Positions 3,766 to 32,336 of a stretch of DNA of 64,000 nt are shown here, piece after piece. The stretch is from Candidatus Scalindua sp. SCAELEC01. Its GTDB lineage: Bacteria > Planctomycetota > Brocadiia > Brocadiales > Scalinduaceae. A program made the position numbers and the translations under genes. The stretch spans positions 62,001-126,000 of the forward strand of contig SHMT01000013.1 in the NCBI GenBank assembly GCA_004282745.1, in the 5' to 3' direction. Every line of letters starts with the position of its first letter. Positions within the stretch are counted from its first letter, which is position 1. The notes beneath the pieces were generated by a model, which did not search any database, was not told where the DNA came from, and saw nothing but the letters and a program-made list of their open reading frames with translations.

Positions 3766-4351
3766 TTGTGACAATCTTGAAGCTGAAAACAAAAAATCTG
3801 TAGGAGTAGTACGTCACTATTTGGTGAAATGCGATCAAACAGGTGCTGTTAAAGAATTTTTTTTAGTATGAGAGGGTTTGCTACCACGTAAAAACAATTT
3901 TTCCTGAGTACAATTGTACCATTGGCACATTTTTTTTTGTCGTAAATTTAATACCGCTCAATTTGGGTAGAACTTATCTGTTTTCCACAATGGTTATTAT
4001 CCGATTACATTCCCTTCTTTGGAAAGTGTATATTACGGAAAAATACGGGTTTATCTAGGAAAAACTGTAGTCCAATCATTAGATGGTTGCCTTATTCAAT
4101 TTCCCGAAAATTATTTAATCCAGCTTCTATATTTTCAATGATCTCTTCTGCCAGTCATCGATCCATTTAGTGTTCGTCTTCATTTGATCTAAGCGCTCCC
4201 ATGCATTTTTATCGATGTTCTGCAACTATCGAAATTTTATGTAATGCCAAATCCGTTGTCAATACTAATAACAGGGAGGTTTCTGTTGAAATACTGAATA
4301 TTGTTCTATAGTATGATTTGTATATTATTAATAGGTGAAATTTTAGTAATT
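3766..4351. other. Gene-free stretch with one degraded coding remnant
   Basis: No complete gene is visible. On the minus strand at about 4092-4230, two overlapping frames read NIDKNAWERLDQMKTNTKW and then, after a one-base shift, AEEIIENIEAGLNNFREIE with a stop. The second part resembles the C-terminal helix of N6-adenine DNA methylases of restriction-modification systems. The match is short and only suggestive. The rest is AT-rich with nothing recognisable. Confidence 0.35.
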
Positions 4352-24173: not shown

Positions 24174-25005
24174 GTGTGCCCGGCGTGAGCATGATCTTAT
24201 GAGGTGAAAGTTCTCTGTACATTTCCGGTAAGGAGTCATGTAGTGACTATAACAAAAAGTACTATACGAAGGCAAGGGCTAAAGGGTGACCTGAGGTTTG
24301 AAGGAAACCTGCGAGTCAAGCCTGCCCCGGACTTGATCCGGGGGGCAGAAATCGCATATAAGGCCGAACTCCTAGGCGAGGGAGCACAACATTCCGAAGC
24401 CCGTCCGGAGAACATGGGGATGGTAAATGTGACAATTGTGCAGGGAAAGATCATGCAATCAATTGCTAAGATTTTCGAATCCATTTTTAACACAAATTAC
24501 TCGGATTTCAGCTACGTTGACGATCTGGCGGTCTTTGTCAAGTCAGAGCGAGCGGGTAACAGGGTCATAAAAAGTATTACAAATTACCTGGAGAAGAAAC
24601 TCAAGGTAACCGTGAATCGCAAGAAAAGTAAGGTCCGAAAAGTTAGAGAGAGTGCTGTATTGGGTTTCCATATCCATTTCAAGAAACTGAGAACAACTGA
24701 GCCCAAAGTTCGGACAAAGGAGGCTATTAATATGGTTCTCAGTCGGAAGAGCTATTGGCGTCTCTCAAAAACTTTGGCTACCAATTGCGGTTTGTCCAAT
24801 GCGACTTTTGAGAAAGAAGGGCTCATCTCCATTCGAGAGCTATGGTGCAAGGTTCATCATCTGGCTACGGCCCGATAGACACTTGATATGGAATCGGCTT
24901 GTCCGAGGAAATACTCTGTGATAAACAGGCTAGGCGCCAAATACAGACCCGTATGTTTGGTGCTGTGGGAGGGAGCCGCTAGAGCGGATTCCTATCCCGA
25001 TTATG
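24174..25005 (+). mobile_element. Internally deleted group II intron
   Basis: The 5' end resembles the bacterial group II intron start: GTGTGCCCGGCG at 24174, then GAGGTGAAAGTTCTC. The 3' part has the domain V-VI pattern (CCCGTATGTTTGGTGCTGTG, GGAGGGAGCCGC, then CCTATCCCGATT at about 24990-25005). A typical element is 2-2.5 kb; only about 830 bp remains, because most of the reverse transcriptase gene between the 5' domains and the YVDD motif is missing. A CCCCGGACTTGATCCGGGG palindrome sits inside at about 24328. It cannot be mobile by itself. Exact ends are estimates. Confidence 0.65.
24425..24878 (+). pseudogene. Remnant of a group II intron reverse transcriptase/maturase
   Basis: The reading frame (open from about 24204) contains FSYVDDLAVFVKSERAGNRV, the RT active-site motif (YVDD), then the downstream LKVTVNRKKSKVRKVRESAV and LGFHIHFKK region and a maturase-like KSYWRLSKTLATNCGLSNATF...LISIRELW. 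The first RT motifs (fingers, motif A) are absent. The protein is therefore the C-terminal half of an intron-encoded protein inside the deleted intron. It ends at TAG, and the domain V-like sequence follows. Confidence 0.7.
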
Positions 25006-25009
25006 TGTT

Positions 25010-25339
25010 TTATTTGCTTAATTTTGCACTGGCAAGGCGGTTTATACTGACTCCTGCTTCTGCAGCTTGTATCGCAAGCCTTCTATGTTCTTCTGGTGGA
25101 ACTCGCACCATAAACTTACCGCTATAATTTTTATTAGCAATTGGATCTGGTATTTCTTCTCCGCTCTTTTTCATATCAGCTATTACATCAGCAATAACTT
25201 TACGTATACCTCTTAATGCTCCCTCAGGAGTCTTTGAGAGCCAGCTTAAGCTTGGAAATTCTGCACACAACCCTACATATTCGTTGTCTTCTGACGACCA
25301 AGTAACGCGGTAAGTATAGTGATCATTTTTAAGTGCCAT
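25010..25339 (-). CDS. hicB: HicB-type antitoxin
   Basis: The 109-residue protein has the HicB partial RNase H fold at the start (YTYRVTWSSEDNEYVGLCAE, FPSLSWLSKTPEGALRGIRK) and a C-terminal ribbon-helix-helix DNA-binding segment (KFMVRVPPEEHRRLAIQAAE, then SINRLASAKL). It binds HicA and represses the operon. It overlaps hicA by 11 bp in the usual toxin-first order. The 3' end lies just beside the group II intron end. Confidence 0.88.
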   Translation of the reverse strand: MALKNDHYTYRVTWSSEDNEYVGLCAEFPSLSWLSKTPEGALRGIRKVIADVIADMKKSGEEIPDPIANKNYSGKFMVRVPPEEHRRLAIQAAEAGVSINRLASAKLSK

Positions 25340-25583
25340 AATTTATCTCCAATATGTCAATGGCCGTAAGCACTTGTTTCACTTGATATGCTTTAGCCTT
25401 TCCTTTATTATTCTGAATATTTACCCTCGGGTCTCCTTTCCATGGTGTTTTGTATACTCGATGACTGCTCCCTCTCTGACGTGCATTCCCAAAATAATAA
25501 TCACAAACCGTGCAAAGTTCCTTGAATCTTATATTATTAGGACTTCGACGCATTTGTTCGAGAATATCTTTTATCTTGCCCAT
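25329..25583 (-). CDS. hicA: HicA-type mRNA interferase toxin
   Basis: The 84-residue protein has the HicA dsRBD-like fold with the key GSSHRVYKTPWKGDPRVNIQ (the active His in GSSH) and GKAKAYQVKQVLTAID at the end. It is slightly longer than the commonest HicA (about 60) but in the range of this subgroup. HicA cleaves mRNA independently of the ribosome. An operator-like palindrome lies 13 bp upstream. It appears intact. Confidence 0.88.
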   Translation of the reverse strand: MGKIKDILEQMRRSPNNIRFKELCTVCDYYFGNARQRGSSHRVYKTPWKGDPRVNIQNNKGKAKAYQVKQVLTAIDILEINYGT

Positions 25584-25655: not shown

Positions 25656-25780
25656 ACATAACGTCCTGCATAAGCAACCACCGCCTGTGCGCAATGCTTG
25701 TAAGAGAGGCTTAAAGCGGCAGCCTCAATAAATATTGAATCGAGTAGTTTTTGGTGGTTGGCTTAATGCGCTTGTTATGT
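25656..25780 (-). other. Integron attC recombination site
   Basis: Read on the minus strand, the 125-bp site runs from ACATAACAAGCGCATTAAGC to GCTTATGCAGGACGTTATGT. The outer boxes are perfectly inverted (ACATAAC / GTTATGT), the inner boxes are GCATTAAGC and GCTTATGC with one extra unpaired base on one arm, and further pairing (CCAACCACC / GGTGGTTG) continues inside. The unpaired base and the core GTTATG are hallmarks of attC. The stop codon of the gene at 25775 lies in its first box, the normal gene-cassette layout. No integron integrase is in the window. Confidence 0.8.
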
Positions 25781-26065
25781 GCTTTCTTTTACGTGCTGTT
25801 CCCACCACTGTTCGCTTTTTCCCGAAAACTCAACAAAATCGAGTGTATTAGTATAGTAAACTGAATAACCTGGGTCTGTGTTGAGTGTTTGAATCGCACC
25901 AACCAATGGCTGGTTTCTTGTTTTTCTCCATTGCCTCGGACAATCAATAACTACAGGTGTTACTTCGGATAAACCCCCAGGCTTCAGATGTTTTTCATAA
26001 TGCAAAAAGCAATCAGCCCTAAACCCGCCATTATACGGTTCTTCTAAAAGTATTGCATAGTGCAT
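25775..26065 (-). CDS. Gene-cassette protein of unknown function
   Basis: The product reads MHYAILLEEPYNGGFRADCF, with CPRQWRKTRNQPLVGAIQTL and ending WWEQHVKEST. About 96 residues; I do not recognise the family. The start at 26065 is preferred, because upstream codons up to 26086 run into the terminal repeat of a RAYT element. The element may therefore have displaced the original promoter and perhaps the first codons. The gene stops inside the attC site that follows it, so it is a complete, solitary cassette ORF. Confidence 0.65.
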   Translation of the reverse strand: MHYAILLEEPYNGGFRADCFLHYEKHLKPGGLSEVTPVVIDCPRQWRKTRNQPLVGAIQTLNTDPGYSVYYTNTLDFVEFSGKSEQWWEQHVKEST

Positions 26066-26078
26066 GGTGCATGTGCAT

Positions 26079-27103
26079 GGGGTCAAACCTTGATCTGTGA
26101 TTTAATCATTGTTATTCTTTCCTTGATCTTATAATCTTTAGATTTCATGATAGTTACTCGACGACTTATAGATGAATAACAAAGGCCAAATAATTTACCA
26201 ATCTCCTGATTGCTATACCACCCTGTACTCCATAAAAAATAGATTAATATATCACGATTGTATTTATTTTCTTCGCTTATCCTTGAGGATTGTATAAAAT
26301 CATTTGTATTACACTTTAATACCTCTGCCGCTTTCTTCAGAAGTGATTCAGGGTTGGTATTTCTTAATACCTGACGCTTTTGTGGGACTTCAACATCAGT
26401 TTTTTCTGTCAAATATTTAGACCTTATTTGGTCGACAAATTTCTGGGAACCCAAAATAATACCGTGTCGAAAATCTTCCCATATCCTCTTCTCTTCCTTG
26501 GAATAGCTTTGCACTATTTCCCTGTATGCTTTGTGCTTCTCTTTTGTCTCCACACATGAAAAGATAGGCCCCGTACATAACCACTCCGGTGACTTCTTCC
26601 CATAAGCATAAATTGGATAACTGCTCCATGGATAATCTACTAATCTCCTGACAATTCCGACCCGCAACGGATTTCTATGAATATAGCAAGAAAGCCGTAT
26701 TAGGTATTCATCATTTTCGATGAGAAAGTTTTTGAAGCGTCCTTGAAACAAGTGACCGCTTCGCTTATGCTTTACATTGTATCTACGTGTATAAGTAGTG
26801 CCAAACCATTGCATGCTTTTAGAGATATTGGAATTATTGGTTTTTAGTAGCAAATGATGATTATCCATAAGAACGTATGCATAAACCTCAACATCAAACC
26901 TGTCAGCCATACTTCCTAAAGTCTCTAGAAACAAAATACGATCGTCACTATCCTGAAAAATATCCCTTCGCTCATTACCGCGTGATAAGATGTGATAATA
27001 AGCTCCCTTATACTCTATGCGCCATTGTCTTGCCATGGTAGGCAAGGTATCACAAACCACCTTTAATCGTCAAGCATATAATCACATATCAAGGTGTGAC
27101 CCC
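26079..27103 (-). mobile_element. RAYT (IS200-like) element with inverted ends
   Basis: The left end GGGGTCAAACCTTGAT and the right end, inverted, GGGGTCACACCTTGAT flank the transposase gene; together they form terminal inverted repeats of about 22 bp with two mismatches. The unit is 1025 bp. It has inserted between a gene-cassette ORF and a reverse transcriptase fragment. Confidence 0.7.
26083..27036 (-). CDS. REP-associated tyrosine transposase (RAYT, Y1 family)
   Basis: The protein of about 317 residues begins MARQWRIEYKGAYYHILSRG and has the Y1 HUH pattern: NERRDIF, the HUH pair LMDNHHLLLKT, and GHLFQGRFKNFLIENDEYLI. The stretch CYIHRNPLRVGIV and the C-terminal helix-turn-helix (NQEIGKLFGLCYSSISRRVT, DnaA C-terminal-like) are typical of long RAYTs. 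Such proteins act on REP-like hairpins as single-strand transposases. ATG 27036 is chosen because the conserved MARQ(W)RIEY start is there; the frame stays open 24 bp upstream. The catalytic Tyr is likely in the region after the HUH motif. It looks intact. Confidence 0.85.
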   Translation of the reverse strand: MARQWRIEYKGAYYHILSRGNERRDIFQDSDDRILFLETLGSMADRFDVEVYAYVLMDNHHLLLKTNNSNISKSMQWFGTTYTRRYNVKHKRSGHLFQGRFKNFLIENDEYLIRLSCYIHRNPLRVGIVRRLVDYPWSSYPIYAYGKKSPEWLCTGPIFSCVETKEKHKAYREIVQSYSKEEKRIWEDFRHGIILGSQKFVDQIRSKYLTEKTDVEVPQKRQVLRNTNPESLLKKAAEVLKCNTNDFIQSSRISEENKYNRDILIYFLWSTGWYSNQEIGKLFGLCYSSISRRVTIMKSKDYKIKERITMIKSQIKV

Positions 27104-27108
27104 ATTTT

Positions 27109-27342
27109 TATGATGTGTTGATGGAACATGTAGCTCGTAAAGTAAGAAATAAGGGTTTGTTGAAGCTCGTTGGCCGCTTCCTTAGGGCTGGTGTTGAAGT
27201 GGACGGTCGGTTGTGAGAAACCAGAAAAGGGGTGTTTCAGGGAAGCCCTCTTTCATCTATACTCAGTAACATCCTTCTGGATGACCTGGATAAGGATTTG
27301 GAGGCACGCGACCTTAAGTTCATCCGTTACGCTGACGTTCTT
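27109..27342 (+). pseudogene. Fragment of a group II intron reverse transcriptase
   Basis: The sequence reads DVLMEHVARKVRNKGLLKLV then GRFLRAGVEVDGRL, an in-frame TGA, and KGVFQGSPLSSILSNILLDD, LDKDLEARDLKFIRYAD. This is the middle of an intron-encoded RT (motif B QGSPLS, start of motif C YAD). It stops inside motif C where an amidohydrolase fragment begins in the opposite direction, and starts at the right end of the RAYT element. It covers a different part of the protein from the remnant at 24425. Confidence 0.7.
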
Positions 27343-27469
27343 TGTCTATTCCATTAAATACATGAACATTGGTAATGAGTATCTTTTGGACTGATTCATT
27401 GGCGAATGCCGGTGATGTATGCAGGAGCTGGTAAGCCAGACAAACAAAAGTGATAATTGGTATTCTCAT
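27343..27469 (-). pseudogene. 5' fragment of a secreted amidohydrolase
   Basis: On the minus strand, after GAGGAGAG, an ATG opens MRIPIITFVCLAYQLLHTSP (signal peptide ending AFA), then NESVQKILITNVHVFNGIDK. The last part matches the N-terminal 'I.I.NV.VFDG' strand of metal-dependent amidohydrolases. Only about 40 codons remain; the frame is cut where the reverse transcriptase fragment begins. Confidence 0.5.
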
Positions 27470-27803
27470 ATTCTCTCCTCTTCGGGTGTGGTTGGCCTAG
27501 TGATAATTGATTCTGGCGTACAAAATTATTGTATTGTTTCTAGATAGCATCACTATTGTAATGATATCCAGTGTTAGAAACCAAGTAATCTATACTGTTT
27601 TCGTTAATTTTCAGATTTAAAAACTCAAGGACTGTATATGCTGCCTACACACCATAAAACCAGTTTCTTCCTTAAAAGCAGGCTCATTCGACAATCTTTA
27701 TTATTTTAGAGACTAATACCATATACATGTGATAAAGACATTCCCTGTTGACATGAACGGGCAATTGGATATTATTACCGTTGTGGTATTTTGCAGAACT
27801 TTA
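27470..27803. other. Gene-free stretch upstream of the RT operon
   Basis: No coding frame that I can support. It would contain the promoter of the deleted amidohydrolase (minus strand). It is AT-rich. No repeats were recognised. Confidence 0.5.
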
Positions 27804-27913
27804 TAATGCCCAGGATGAGAATCTCTTGGCTATTAATATTTTTAGTTATGCAACGTTCGGCCAACAAGCGGATTGAGCAGTCTCAAAAAATGCGCTCCTC
27901 ATCCTGGGCATTA
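27804..27913 (+). ncRNA. Candidate structured RNA upstream of the RT operon
   Basis: TAATGCCCAGGATGAG (27804-27819) and its perfect inverted copy (27898-27913) enclose 78 bases that contain a small hairpin (TTGAG-CAGT-CTCAA, 27873-27886). A 16-bp perfect closing stem of this size is unlikely by chance. It lies 69 bp before the start of the methyltransferase-fold/RT operon, where several RT defence systems carry their template or guide RNA. The inner part also contains GGCCAACAAGCGGATTGAGC, resembling half of an attC. Transcription is unproven, and it could instead be a MITE-like or cassette relic. Confidence 0.4.
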
Positions 27914-27982
27914 GCTCACCATGAATTCAGAGTTACATGTGTATATTTTTATTTGAAATCGAATATATTTTAAGGTAAAGCA

Positions 27983-28939
27983 TTGACAAAACGGTTCATT
28001 AAATCTAGTGACATTCCATCTAGCTTGTGGTGTAAAAAGTCAGAGAATATTATACTTCCCATAAAGTTGGTTGAGCTATGGAAAGGCTTGTTGGAAAAAA
28101 ATAACTTGTTAGGTTTAGCTGAAAAAATTGCTCCATCAGGCTTTGAGGGTGGAATATCTAAAGAAGACACTGATAAGCACTTAGCTTGGCGCTATAACGG
28201 TTCTTGTGCCAGAGTATTACTGTCTGTTTTAGACCCTAAGCACAAGTTGTCTGATGTTTCTGATGCTTATGCATCAATATTCGCTGGCAATAAAGTTTTT
28301 CTATCAGATCTCCCAAGTGGTTCTGGTGCTGCCATAGTCAGCATACTATGTACATTGTTTGAATTAAGAAAGCACAATGTGCTTCCAAGGCACCCATTAA
28401 ATATAAGCATTATTGCTGGCGAGATTTCTCCTACTGCAAAGATTTACTTAAAAGAGCAATTAGAGAATTTGACACCCTTCCTTGAAGAACAAGCGATTTG
28501 GATTGAATTCGAAATTGTTGAATGGGATACATTAAGCAAAATAAGTACAGTAGATCTCATCAGGAAAATAACAATTTCAAGCCAACATTCTACAGCAAAG
28601 CTGCTGATCTTGAGTAACTTTACAGGGTTTCTTGTTAATTCTGGAAAATGGGAAAAAGCGAAACCTCAGTTTGATGATATCTTTCTCCACAGTAGAGATT
28701 TACTAAGTACATTGATATGGATTGAGCCACAAAGAAAAAATGTTGTCAATTTTTTCAAAAGAGCAATCGAATGGCTTAAAGTTTCTTTCAGTCCTTTATT
28801 AGGTTCAAAATTGACGAGAGATGATAGCAGTTGGTATGCGCAAGCAGATATATTCTGTAAACAACCGATTAAAGATGGATATTTTCTAGTACGGCTTACA
28901 GTAATGAGGTTTGATTTACCGCTGGAGGTACAGAAGTGA
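27983..28939 (+). CDS. Methyltransferase-fold protein paired with a reverse transcriptase
   Basis: The 318-residue protein starts with TTG after an AAGG site. Its middle looks like a class I SAM-dependent Rossmann fold: a glycine-rich motif I (LSDLPSGSGAAIVSIL, residues 107-122), an acidic end of strand 2 (IIAGEIS, Glu147), IEFEIVEWD (174-182) for strand 3, LLILSNFTGFL (207-217) for motif IV, and LIWIEPQRKN (244-253). The last resembles Rsm22-like proteins. Helices at the N-terminus (residues 25-100) are unlike standard methyltransferases. It overlaps the RT by 4 bp (stop TGA and ATG/GTG overlap), so the two are surely co-translated. Function is unknown; a role in modifying RNA or nucleotides for the RT is a guess. 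Confidence 0.7.
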   Translation: MTKRFIKSSDIPSSLWCKKSENIILPIKLVELWKGLLEKNNLLGLAEKIAPSGFEGGISKEDTDKHLAWRYNGSCARVLLSVLDPKHKLSDVSDAYASIFAGNKVFLSDLPSGSGAAIVSILCTLFELRKHNVLPRHPLNISIIAGEISPTAKIYLKEQLENLTPFLEEQAIWIEFEIVEWDTLSKISTVDLIRKITISSQHSTAKLLILSNFTGFLVNSGKWEKAKPQFDDIFLHSRDLLSTLIWIEPQRKNVVNFFKRAIEWLKVSFSPLLGSKLTRDDSSWYAQADIFCKQPIKDGYFLVRLTVMRFDLPLEVQK

Positions 28940-30651
28940 GTAACGAACTTGCAGTGAAAGCTTTAAATCAATATAGAAAAAGGGATATTTTCCCATATTT
29001 AGGTTTGCGCTACTATCTAGAAAGTTCGACTGGGAGACAAAGTCGTTGGATAAAGAACGTTTGCACAAGGTTAACAACCGATGTGGTGCATTCCAGCTAT
29101 TTGAAAACTTACCATTTTAAAGAATTCTCAAATGGTGGTTTTTTACATCGAGACATTTATTTACCTGCGCCCAATGAAATATTGTCCGAAGCTGCGCTAA
29201 TATCAGAGATTTCAAAGTATGATTCTTTCAAACCCAAGCCATATGTCTATAGTTATCGTTTTTCTAAAAAAAACGAGAAAAGTGGTGTTTTTCAACCATA
29301 TTTTAACGGATTTAAGGAGAGGCATAAATCCATTGCAGACGCATGCCGAAGCATTGAAGGTGGAATCGTTTTATATACTGATATTAAGAAATTTTACCCT
29401 AGCATCAAATCGGTAGATGCGTTAACGACGTGGGAGCGCTCGTGCGACAATTCGGATATTGATGATAAATATAAGCGTTTAGGCAGGGAAATACTTAAAA
29501 AGCATGAAAGTGTGAGTCTTTGTGATGGGACTTGTAATGGAGTTCTAACAGGCCCATTATTTAGTCATGTCATTGCCAATCTATTGCTTGACCAAACCGA
29601 CATCCAAATGTATGAAATTTCTAAAGGAAAATATTGGCGATATGTCGATGATGTGGTTTTTGTTGGAACTAATGATGAAGTTGCTAAGTGGCGAGAGCTA
29701 CTTGGGGAGAAATTTTTTAAATTAAACTTAGAACTACATGATGGGGATAAAGATTTTCAAGTCTCTTGTAAGGATTGGCTAGAAGGTGAAGATGACTTCG
29801 ATAATACCTTCGGAATTGAGTGGATTTCTTTAATCAGTGGTGTAAAAAGATTTTTAATAGCGAATCCATCAAAAGCCAAAGAGCTTCAAGAGTCTTTTAA
29901 GGACGATCATATTCGAATCCCGGTTATCGATTATACAAACGCGGTTAAGGAATCAACATACCTACAAAGATTTCAAGATTGGATGGGAAAATATAAATGG
30001 GCAATAAAATCAGTTAAGCCCATTACTATTGAGCGATTGTTAAATCAGGCAAAAAAGTGTGAGAAAGTATTCAAGTTAAAGCTGGATGTTCTTTTAAATA
30101 AGGGAGAACCCGTCTCCATTTATGAAGGAAAAAGGTTTACTCTAAAACTGAGATACCTATCAGGTCGGCTTCTATATTTATTAAGCAGACAAGAATTATC
30201 TAAACTATATCCGAAGCTTGAAGTTCGACCAGAACTCTATTTCATAGCAAAGACTATGGAAGCCGTTGCAACTAGAGATATATCTCTTGTTTTACATATG
30301 GGTGTTGATGCAACTCATGCTGCAGCACAATTATTAAGGGTCGACCAAGGAATAGTCACAATAAGTAAAGATACTAAAACTTCCTCTGTTTTTGAACAAT
30401 CGTTGGCTGTATTGGAAATAAATGGCGTTGAGCATGACTTTAAAGGTTCTGAAACTGAATTAAAGTCTTTTGCGACGGCAGAAAATATTAGTAAATTAAT
30501 GAGTTCTCCAAATGGATTTATCAAAGAAGTTGCTTGTTTGCATGGAATACTGCCTTCGAGACACCAAGAAGCTTTGGATAGCAGTTTTGATAGAGACGAA
30601 GAGCTATCTCTGGATATTCTTAATCAATTACAAAAATCAAGTCATTGTTAA
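28936..30651 (+). CDS. Unassigned reverse transcriptase, likely defence-type (UG/DRT-like)
   Basis: The 571-residue protein has the catalytic RT motifs: motif A YTDIKKFYPSI (residues 147-157, Asp149), motif B region GVLTGPLFSHVIANLLL (202-218, with TGP where QG is commonest) and motif C WRYVDDVVFVG (234-244, Asp238 and Asp239). There is no intron maturase, HNH or retron thumb signature. The last 230 residues (from about 340) are a long alpha-helical region, as in UG/Abi-type RTs implicated in anti-phage defence (DRT systems). The first residues (YRKRDIFPYLGLRYYLE) are also helical. It is intact, unlike the RT scraps nearby, and follows a methyltransferase-fold gene with a 4-bp overlap. I could not assign it to a numbered UG group. 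Confidence 0.85.
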   Translation: MSNELAVKALNQYRKRDIFPYLGLRYYLESSTGRQSRWIKNVCTRLTTDVVHSSYLKTYHFKEFSNGGFLHRDIYLPAPNEILSEAALISEISKYDSFKPKPYVYSYRFSKKNEKSGVFQPYFNGFKERHKSIADACRSIEGGIVLYTDIKKFYPSIKSVDALTTWERSCDNSDIDDKYKRLGREILKKHESVSLCDGTCNGVLTGPLFSHVIANLLLDQTDIQMYEISKGKYWRYVDDVVFVGTNDEVAKWRELLGEKFFKLNLELHDGDKDFQVSCKDWLEGEDDFDNTFGIEWISLISGVKRFLIANPSKAKELQESFKDDHIRIPVIDYTNAVKESTYLQRFQDWMGKYKWAIKSVKPITIERLLNQAKKCEKVFKLKLDVLLNKGEPVSIYEGKRFTLKLRYLSGRLLYLLSRQELSKLYPKLEVRPELYFIAKTMEAVATRDISLVLHMGVDATHAAAQLLRVDQGIVTISKDTKTSSVFEQSLAVLEINGVEHDFKGSETELKSFATAENISKLMSSPNGFIKEVACLHGILPSRHQEALDSSFDRDEELSLDILNQLQKSSHC

Positions 30652-30678
30652 ATGAACTTTCAAATCAATAAATTCTGA

Positions 30679-30701
30679 CTAAAAAAGCAGCGCTTTTTTA
30701 G
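30679..30701 (+). terminator. Terminator hairpin after the RT gene
   Basis: CTAAAAAAGC pairs perfectly with GCTTTTTTAG around a 3-base loop, 28 bp after the RT stop. The T-run inside the right arm can serve as the U-tract. It closes the two-gene operon. Confidence 0.65.
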
Positions 30702-30745
30702 CAGGTTATCTCAAGCATTCGTCGCGCCACAAGCGGAATAAACCC

Positions 30746-31015
30746 ATGGAGCCAAGCAAAGAATTTCAAATAATCCCCGGTGTCGGGAAAAGTCTAAGCA
30801 AAGATTTTGTTGATTTAGGATATCAAAAAGTAAATGAGCTAAAAGGTGAAAATCCGGAGACAATGTATCAAAACCTGATGGCGTTACGAGGGCATCACAT
30901 TGATCGCTGTGTGTTGTATGTTTTCAGGTGTGCCGTTTATTACGCTAGTAATTCTGTCCAAGAACCAGAATTATTGAAATGGTGGAACTGGAAGGATGGA
31001 AAACAAAAAAAATAG
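30746..31015 (+). CDS. Cdd1-type helix-hairpin-helix protein
   Basis: The 89-residue protein is built on IIPGVGKSLSKDFVDLGYQK, a helix-hairpin-helix DNA-binding motif, followed by VNELKGENPETMYQNLMALR and the highly typical HIDRCVLYVFRCAVYYASN and LLKWWNWKDG. This matches the small 'pathogenicity locus' (Cdd1) family. Its biochemical role is not established. Its 3' end overlaps the permease gene by 20 bp, so the two are in one transcript. Confidence 0.82.
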   Translation: MEPSKEFQIIPGVGKSLSKDFVDLGYQKVNELKGENPETMYQNLMALRGHHIDRCVLYVFRCAVYYASNSVQEPELLKWWNWKDGKQKK

Positions 31016-32336
31016 TTTGAAACAAACACCTGTAATGAACAATCATAACACACAACATTTTTCACGCTCTCTCAATCGATACGATGTTGTCTGCATTGGG
31101 ATTAATGGTATTGTTGGAGCGGGAATTTTTCTGTTGCCGGGAAAAATTGCCGCGCTTGCAGGCCCACGTTCCATCTTGGTATACCTTCTTTGCGGGCTGC
31201 TCTGTCTTGCTATTGCCCTCTGCTTTGCAGAGATGGGAGGGAAATATCAACAAACGGGAGGGGCATACCTCTATGCACGCGACACATTCGGCCCGATGAC
31301 AGGATTTCTGGTAGGTTGGATGGTATCGATCTCTGCCATTGTCGGGTGGGCTACCATGGCAAGTGGTTTTCTCCTCTATCTGCGCTATTTCTCTCCTCAC
31401 CTTTCTGAGGGGTGGTGTGGGAACGCCATCATGACGGCCCTCATCATAAGTTTGAGTACGCTGAATTTTCTCGGGGTAAAGATTGGTGCCCGGATCATCA
31501 ATTTCTTCACCATAAGCAAATTAATACCTCTCTTCATCTTTATCCTGTGGGGTTTTTCCCATGTTGAAGTCTCCTCACTGCGTCCAATTTTAGCATTCGA
31601 TGGTAACAGTATTGGGAGCGCCGTCGTCATTGCCCTCTTTGCCTTCACAGGGTTTGAACATCTGGCCGTTCCGGCGGGTGAGATGAGAAATCCCAAAAAA
31701 GATATACCGAAAGCCCTCTTCCTGGTAATTGTTGGCAGTACTCTCATCTATGTATTGGTCCAAACAGTAGCCGTAGGCACCTATCCTCAATTAGCAGGAT
31801 CAAAAAAACCGTTGGCAGATGCAGCAACCTGTTTTTTGGGTCCTTCAGGTGGTCTGCTCATTGCGGTTGGAGCTCTCCTTGCCATTGCAGGCATCAACTC
31901 AGGAATTGCCTTAACGGGACCAAGAAATCTCTATGCCTTATCGAAAGATGGGTTTTTGCCGGAACTCATTTCAAAGATCCATCCACGATTTCATACCCCT
32001 TATATAGCAATCGTTTTCTGCTCTTCCCTGACATTGATCTTAACCCTCACCGGTACATTCGAGTACCTAGTTTTCGCCAGTGTGCTCGTAAGTCTTCTGC
32101 AATACATACCCACATGCCTGGCTGTCATCGTATTGCGGAGGAAAAGCCCTGTGCCTGCAGGGAGTTATAAGGTTCCTGGCGGGTACACTATTCCTTGTTT
32201 GGCTCTTGTGACATGTTTCTGGCTTTTGGTACAGATAAAGATGGTAGTAATTTTGGCAACCCTAGGGTGTATGGCGCTCTCTTTACCCTTTTATTTCCTG
32301 AGAAAAAGGCATCTCTCAAACAGTGAACCAAATTGA
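30996..32336 (+). CDS. APC-family amino acid permease
   Basis: The 446-residue protein has about 12 membrane segments. The first contains the APC substrate-binding motif GINGIVGAGIFLLPGKIA, and a conserved stretch (FAFTGFEHLAVPAGEMRNPKKDIPKAL) marks helix 6 and loop 6-7. The substrate (amino acid or amine) cannot be predicted. The ATG follows GGAAGG closely. It overlaps the preceding HhH gene by 20 bp. The N-terminal 25 residues are polar and cytoplasmic. Confidence 0.87.
   Translation: MENKKNSLKQTPVMNNHNTQHFSRSLNRYDVVCIGINGIVGAGIFLLPGKIAALAGPRSILVYLLCGLLCLAIALCFAEMGGKYQQTGGAYLYARDTFGPMTGFLVGWMVSISAIVGWATMASGFLLYLRYFSPHLSEGWCGNAIMTALIISLSTLNFLGVKIGARIINFFTISKLIPLFIFILWGFSHVEVSSLRPILAFDGNSIGSAVVIALFAFTGFEHLAVPAGEMRNPKKDIPKALFLVIVGSTLIYVLVQTVAVGTYPQLAGSKKPLADAATCFLGPSGGLLIAVGALLAIAGINSGIALTGPRNLYALSKDGFLPELISKIHPRFHTPYIAIVFCSSLTLILTLTGTFEYLVFASVLVSLLQYIPTCLAVIVLRRKSPVPAGSYKVPGGYTIPCLALVTCFWLLVQIKMVVILATLGCMALSLPFYFLRKRHLSNSEPN

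Follow-up and report, generated by a model that had tools for sequence, protein, structure and literature searches.

The window, meaning the whole 64,000-nt stretch of DNA that was analysed, carries a two-gene operon encoding a UG36 reverse transcriptase (RT) and a companion protein, with a palindrome upstream (Table 1). The RT is covered almost end to end by the PADLOC RT_UG36 profile (residues 1-569 against profile positions 1-556 of 557). The companion protein gives a 17.8-bit match to the UG35 RT profile (residues 75-184), so that UG35 RTs may carry a related domain as a fusion. The genome from which the window derives (G000) encodes a member of the hydrazine synthase alpha family above cut-off, which was found in none of 14 control genomes; we therefore infer an anammox planctomycete as host.

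Table 1. Features of the window around the UG36 RT operon.
Position	Strand	Feature	Remarks
25010..25583	-	HicB-family gene (55.7 bits) and 84-aa partner	Next cassette after the attC at 25656..25780
25656..25780	-	Classical attC (ACATAAC...GTTATGT) of another cassette unit	Between two cassette-like units
25775..26086	-	103-aa ORF, cassette gene	Stop codon overlaps the attC at 25656..25780
27804..27913	+	attC-type recombination site	Hairpin-less copy of the dispersed gene-less mini-cassette family
27804..27819	+	Left arm, R''-L'' side, core AAT	
27898..27913	+	Right arm, L'-R' side, core ATT	Probable crossover between 27910 and 27911
27911..30651	+	Putative UG36 gene cassette, begins TTAGCTC	3' end not fixed
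27983..28939	+	Companion protein of the UG36 RT, 318 aa	44-72% identical in relatives
28936..30651	+	Reverse transcriptase RT_UG36, 571 aa	691.6 bits
30656..30721	+	Weak match to the classical attC model	13.4 bits, E 0.045-0.08

Further upstream are other cassette-like units with a classical attC between them (Table 1); the 84-aa partner of the HicB-family gene had no Pfam match. The same region contains a 325-aa Y1 (IS200-like) transposase gene (26083-27060, minus strand, 47.1 bits), and group II intron RT fragments flank it, one at 24204-24878 (RVT_1, 28.4 bits) and one, recognised by eye, at about 27100-27340. Group IIC introns target attC sites.

The original prediction described the palindrome as a 110-bp unit closed by a perfect 16-bp inverted repeat around a spacer of about 78 nt, 69 bp before the operon. 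Comparison of the arms (16 nt each, 100% complementary) reproduced this exactly, and the same distance of 69 bases to the operon start at 27983 was obtained. Such arm pairs are expected by chance about 0.0015 times per window (64000 x 100 / 4^16). The 110-nt strand folds, as an attC should, into a long hairpin (-40.5 kcal/mol, z = -5.0), and none of 200 shuffled sequences folded equally well. The inner TTGAG/CTCAA hairpin is present too, though in the window copy alone, as all 13 other aligned copies of the repeat described below lack CTCAA at that place. Double-sided pair changes among the aligned copies occur at 3 of the 22 predicted pairs of the outer stem. A promoter-like TTGACA/TATTAT pair at 27748-27775 is directed into the operon; such sites were rarer than in shuffled sequence (6 vs 12.1). 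A search of positions 26000-32000 against Rfam gave no match at E<=1.

Canonical attC sites have R''/R' cores AAC and GTT, and extrahelical bases in the L arm set the strand choice. The window copy and the other G000 copies have the cores AAT/ATT, while AAC/GTT is seen in the copies of the relative G004 and in one G019 copy. Moreover, the 16 bp of the window arms pair without a bulge and hence without an extrahelical base. Because of these two departures the site is called attC-type rather than a canonical attC.

The original prediction proposed looking for the palindrome elsewhere in the genome, and this search revealed 10 further full-length sites, so that the element is a dispersed repeat. 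Forty-six places were hit at E<=10 in the DNA search of G000, 11 of which, the window included, cover the repeat; a twelfth copy is partial. A covariance model made from 14 copies, with forward-strand matches counted, found the element in 4 of the 59 genomes searched (G000, 11; G004, 2; G006, 3; G019, 2). In nine of the 11 G000 copies the element is longer (127-129 bp), as its left end lies about 22 nt further out and forms a second hairpin. They begin TTGGCCGCC-AGAAAAT-GGCGGCCAAT, the left hairpin itself reading TTGGCCGCC-AGAAAAT-GGCGGCCAATGCCC or a near variant, and terminate in ...GGGCA; the window copy and the copy labelled C28 are devoid of this hairpin. Copies C99 and C18 show no difference across the aligned core, and C10 matches C96 at 99.1%, which indicates that these pairs spread recently, while the nearest family member of the window copy is C9 (92.7%). 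A copy on contig 72 of G019 has the same architecture with unrelated left-hairpin letters (TTTGCTGACG-CTTC-GCGTCAGCAAATGCCC), suggesting that pairing rather than sequence is kept in the left hairpin.

Other dispersed repeats occur in the vicinity of some copies. An unrelated repeat of about 100 nt (TATACTCATCTCATAA...CACCAAGATTTGG) is found at about 1659-1762 of locus L067 and in the right flank of the C88 copy; it is present in at least 30 places in G001 and is 90-96% alike in the sister species. Both flanks of the C28 copy (locus L095) match other dispersed repeats in relatives, which renders the comparison ambiguous; its left flank precedes G↓TT in G006 (the arrow marks a junction or crossover point) and might represent a further type of attI or attC.

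One copy allowed its insertion to be reconstructed. C96 splits an NB-ARC (STAND NTPase) gene, and joining its flanks restores an open frame of 303 codons with the NB-ARC profile spanning the junction. Intact STAND homologues align across this junction free of gaps (49% in G021 and 65% in G037, junction-spanning alignment), and the G037 DNA ATATTGATAAA corresponds to ATATTG↓element↓ATAAA at C96. The element was thus inserted exactly at G↓AT without target duplication. This is the only empty site found; when the joined flanks of 10 copies were compared with eight relatives, none of the other junctions was bridged by a contiguous match outside repeats. All nine hairpin copies in G000 are preceded by a purine and followed by WT (R↓WT). 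The element ends of C10 and C96 agree, whereas the next bases differ (TTA vs ATA), which suggests that the bases following the element belong to the target. The chromosomal attG sites used by integrons have a GWT motif.

The partial copy (38 bp) ties the family to an integron. It lies on contig 22 of G000, at the attI of an intact 443-aa integron integrase, IntI (NCBIfam TIGR02249, 393.9 bits against a cut-off of 265). Next in line are small genes directed away from the integrase, with classical attCs between some of them (e.g., GCCTAAC...GTTAGAT). The first cassette (locus L089, 4036-4674, minus strand) has a weak AbiU2/HEPN match (20.9 bits, below cut-off). The sequence from the integrase to the first cassette, ending AATAACTTG↓TT or AGTAACTTG↓TT, is common to G000, G004, G012, and G019, and its conservation stops directly after the crossover. 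Two G004 copies of the element stand immediately behind this conserved attI flank, which identifies the left edge of the element, G↓TTGGCC, as the integron crossover.

The left boundary is equally exact at an attC. C18 stands immediately behind the classical attC of a HicB/HicA-like cassette, and the homology of this attC to those of relatives stops at its GTT; the matching attCs in relatives occur within about 5 kb of an integrase match on six contigs. C28 is followed by an ORF that has an attC scoring 124.2 bits, and C33 is behind a weak attC (18.6 bits) ending at the junction. These sites were scored with attC covariance models, built because motif searches were either too strict (0 matches) or too loose (69 matches on shuffled sequence); for the seven other full G000 copies the models found no neighbouring attC. 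Copies track close integrases poorly, as G006 has copies with an IntI of only 41% whereas close IntIs are present in G012 (79%) and G009 (69%), neither of which has a copy at E<=0.01.

The operon itself was compared with 11 UG36 loci in named genomes. The closest relatives are in Gilvimarinus, Marinobacter, and Aeromonas (RT 62-66%, companion protein 71-72%). In Marinobacter zhejiangensis, an attC starting at position 3926 of locus L110 ends G↓TTAGCTC, the start of the UG36 unit, and the unit of Aeromonas rivipollensis likewise starts G↓TTAGCTC. Both units have the R'' sequence GAGCTAAC 2 nt after the RT stop codon, in Aeromonas as part of a complete attC which is followed by another cassette. 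In these two clear cassettes the first gene starts after only about 75 nt and the attC follows the RT at a distance of 2 nt, leaving no room for a sizeable adjacent noncoding RNA. Cassettes were recognised at 2 of the 11 loci; boundaries were not seen at the other nine with a boundary finder that is insensitive.

The window shares this start, as the palindrome ends GGGCA↓TTAGCTC, placing A↓TTAGCTC at the beginning of the UG36 unit; the match is short, since TTA follows most copies anyway and the informative GCTC is expected about 1 in 256 times by chance. On the 3' side, GAGCTAAC is not present after the window RT. The weak attC-model match begins 5 nt after the RT stop codon and is either a degenerate attC or chance, so that any 3' attC belonging to the operon is degenerate at best. 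At E<=1e-80, a single genome among 392 of the phylum contained UG36, namely G000, and in the Marinobacter family 4 of 163 genomes did; a search of plasmids gave no match. The window operon is apparently of foreign origin and has the appearance of a mobile integron cassette that gammaproteobacteria carry as well. Judged by its boundary, it is probably an integron cassette in an anammox genome.

Most probably, the palindrome is the attC-type site of a family of gene-less mini-cassettes moved by IntI, and it abuts the UG36 operon cassette. Like attC sites, the window copy and some of the others are at cassette boundaries, with A↓TTAGCTC before the UG36 unit and the attI and attC junctions elsewhere. 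The original prediction had given a relic of a cassette with half an attC-like sequence as an alternative, and this was right in kind. According to the mechanism we propose, a mini-cassette of about 106-129 bp contains little beyond the attC palindrome. IntI, encoded on contig 22, would cleave the single strand in its folded form at R' (R↓TT), and the cut mini-cassette would then be joined to attI, another attC, or a secondary R↓WT site in the chromosome, without duplicating the target. In the window, the mini-cassette site would abut the UG36 RT operon, itself a cassette, at the crossover point. What the sequences show is the dispersal, a left boundary that coincides with the crossover at attI and at an attC, a single insertion free of duplication, and the common cassette start TTAGCTC; that IntI is active and is the mover, that the window copy came in this way, and that UG36 arrived as a cassette is inferred. 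The left edge of the window copy can be read in two ways: the site may be the attC that a lost upstream cassette left behind, or a mini-cassette without hairpin that inserted in front of UG36. No convincing IntI remnant or attI was found upstream of the window copy, the best match (E 0.26) being elsewhere in the window.

The copies might instead be old attC remnants of decayed arrays, left behind by array break-up and never moved as mini-cassettes. C18, C28, C33, and the window copy do adjoin other attCs or cassettes, but copies on different contigs are up to 99-100% alike and one sits within a coding gene with exact ends, which makes this improbable. Movement as mini-cassettes accounts for the family better than movement by a cut-and-paste (DDE) transposon, of which the element would be a MITE with terminal inverted repeats and, e.g., a TA target duplication. 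A MITE had been the second alternative of the original prediction; the miniature size and dispersal hold, while the junctions fit an integron integrase and not a target-duplicating transposase. The terminal arms are perfect, and the window copy can be read as TA↓ATGCCC...GGGCAT↓TA, yet this reading suits the hairpin-less copies only. Matching terminal repeats are missing from the hairpin copies, whose ends are unlike (TTGGCC... vs ...GGGCA) with no TA at the left, the C96 empty site is free of duplication, and the left edge coincides with the attI crossover. We rejected this explanation as quite unlikely.

Less likely again is a REP-like palindrome moved by a Y1 (IS200/RAYT-type) transposase such as the one at 26083-27060. 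Two of the 12 copies (window and C18) are within about 1 kb of a Y1 gene, but a genome-wide PF01797 search returned eight matches and the other copies are near none of them; the attI, attC, and R↓WT junctions would also remain unexplained, and the candidate was rejected. Some DRTs (DRT2/DRT9) and retrons use upstream structured RNAs as RT templates. That the palindrome is such a template or guide RNA of the UG36 RT, as originally predicted from its strong folding and its position 69 bp upstream, is scarcely credible and was dismissed, as ten other full copies are dispersed in a genome with a single UG36 RT, the covariance model found the element beside the homologous RT genes at none of the 11 UG36 loci, the first gene of homologous cassettes is preceded by only about 75 nt, and Rfam gave no match.

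The RT template RNA was therefore a false lead, which is replaced by a testable claim on integron cassettes, namely that a cassette can be stripped down to its recombination site alone and can proliferate away from integrons in the manner of a transposon-derived repeat. We lean slightly towards the broader view that gene-less, attC-only mini-cassettes act as the MITEs of the integron integrase, spreading to attI, attC, and secondary chromosomal sites, interrupting genes and possibly seeding new capture points, and that one of them adjoins a UG36 cassette exchanged between Planctomycetota and Gammaproteobacteria. The two-gene UG36 RT operon is an integron cassette in two gammaproteobacterial genomes, which bears on how putative defence RTs travel. 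The cassette boundaries also argue that UG36 needs no sizeable noncoding RNA beyond its 2.7-kb unit. In a literature search that included few subscription journals, we found no report of UG36 in integrons or of a multi-copy dispersed family of attC-only cassettes.

Likeness to the template RNAs of DRT2, DRT9, and retrons is limited to the position upstream of an RT and strong folding; here the element is not conserved with the RT, and it is a dispersed DNA repeat with recombination-type junctions. Integrons have been described as reservoirs of anti-phage cassettes (Darracq 2025 and Kieffer 2025, via an excerpt of PMC12409362). The window resembles these in that putative defence genes are carried as cassettes and differs in its cargo, a UG36 RT operon with two genes and a length of about 2.7 kb that is a putative defence system. 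Gene-less (ORF-less) cassettes, often with promoter activity, are known in Vibrio superintegrons, according to excerpts of PMC11014356. They share with our family the palindromic site at cassette boundaries and the lack of a gene, whereas the elements described here are about 106-129 bp long and nearly all palindrome, their 11 copies are mostly outside arrays, and their cores in G000 are AAT/ATT. Insertion of cassettes at genomic attG sites has also been reported (Loot et al. 2024, as cited in excerpts of PMC12901181 and PMC11023631). There, as in G000 with its R↓WT targets, cassettes are found at chromosomal sites; what sets the present case apart is that, in an anammox genome, gene-less cassettes form a multi-copy family that occurs naturally.
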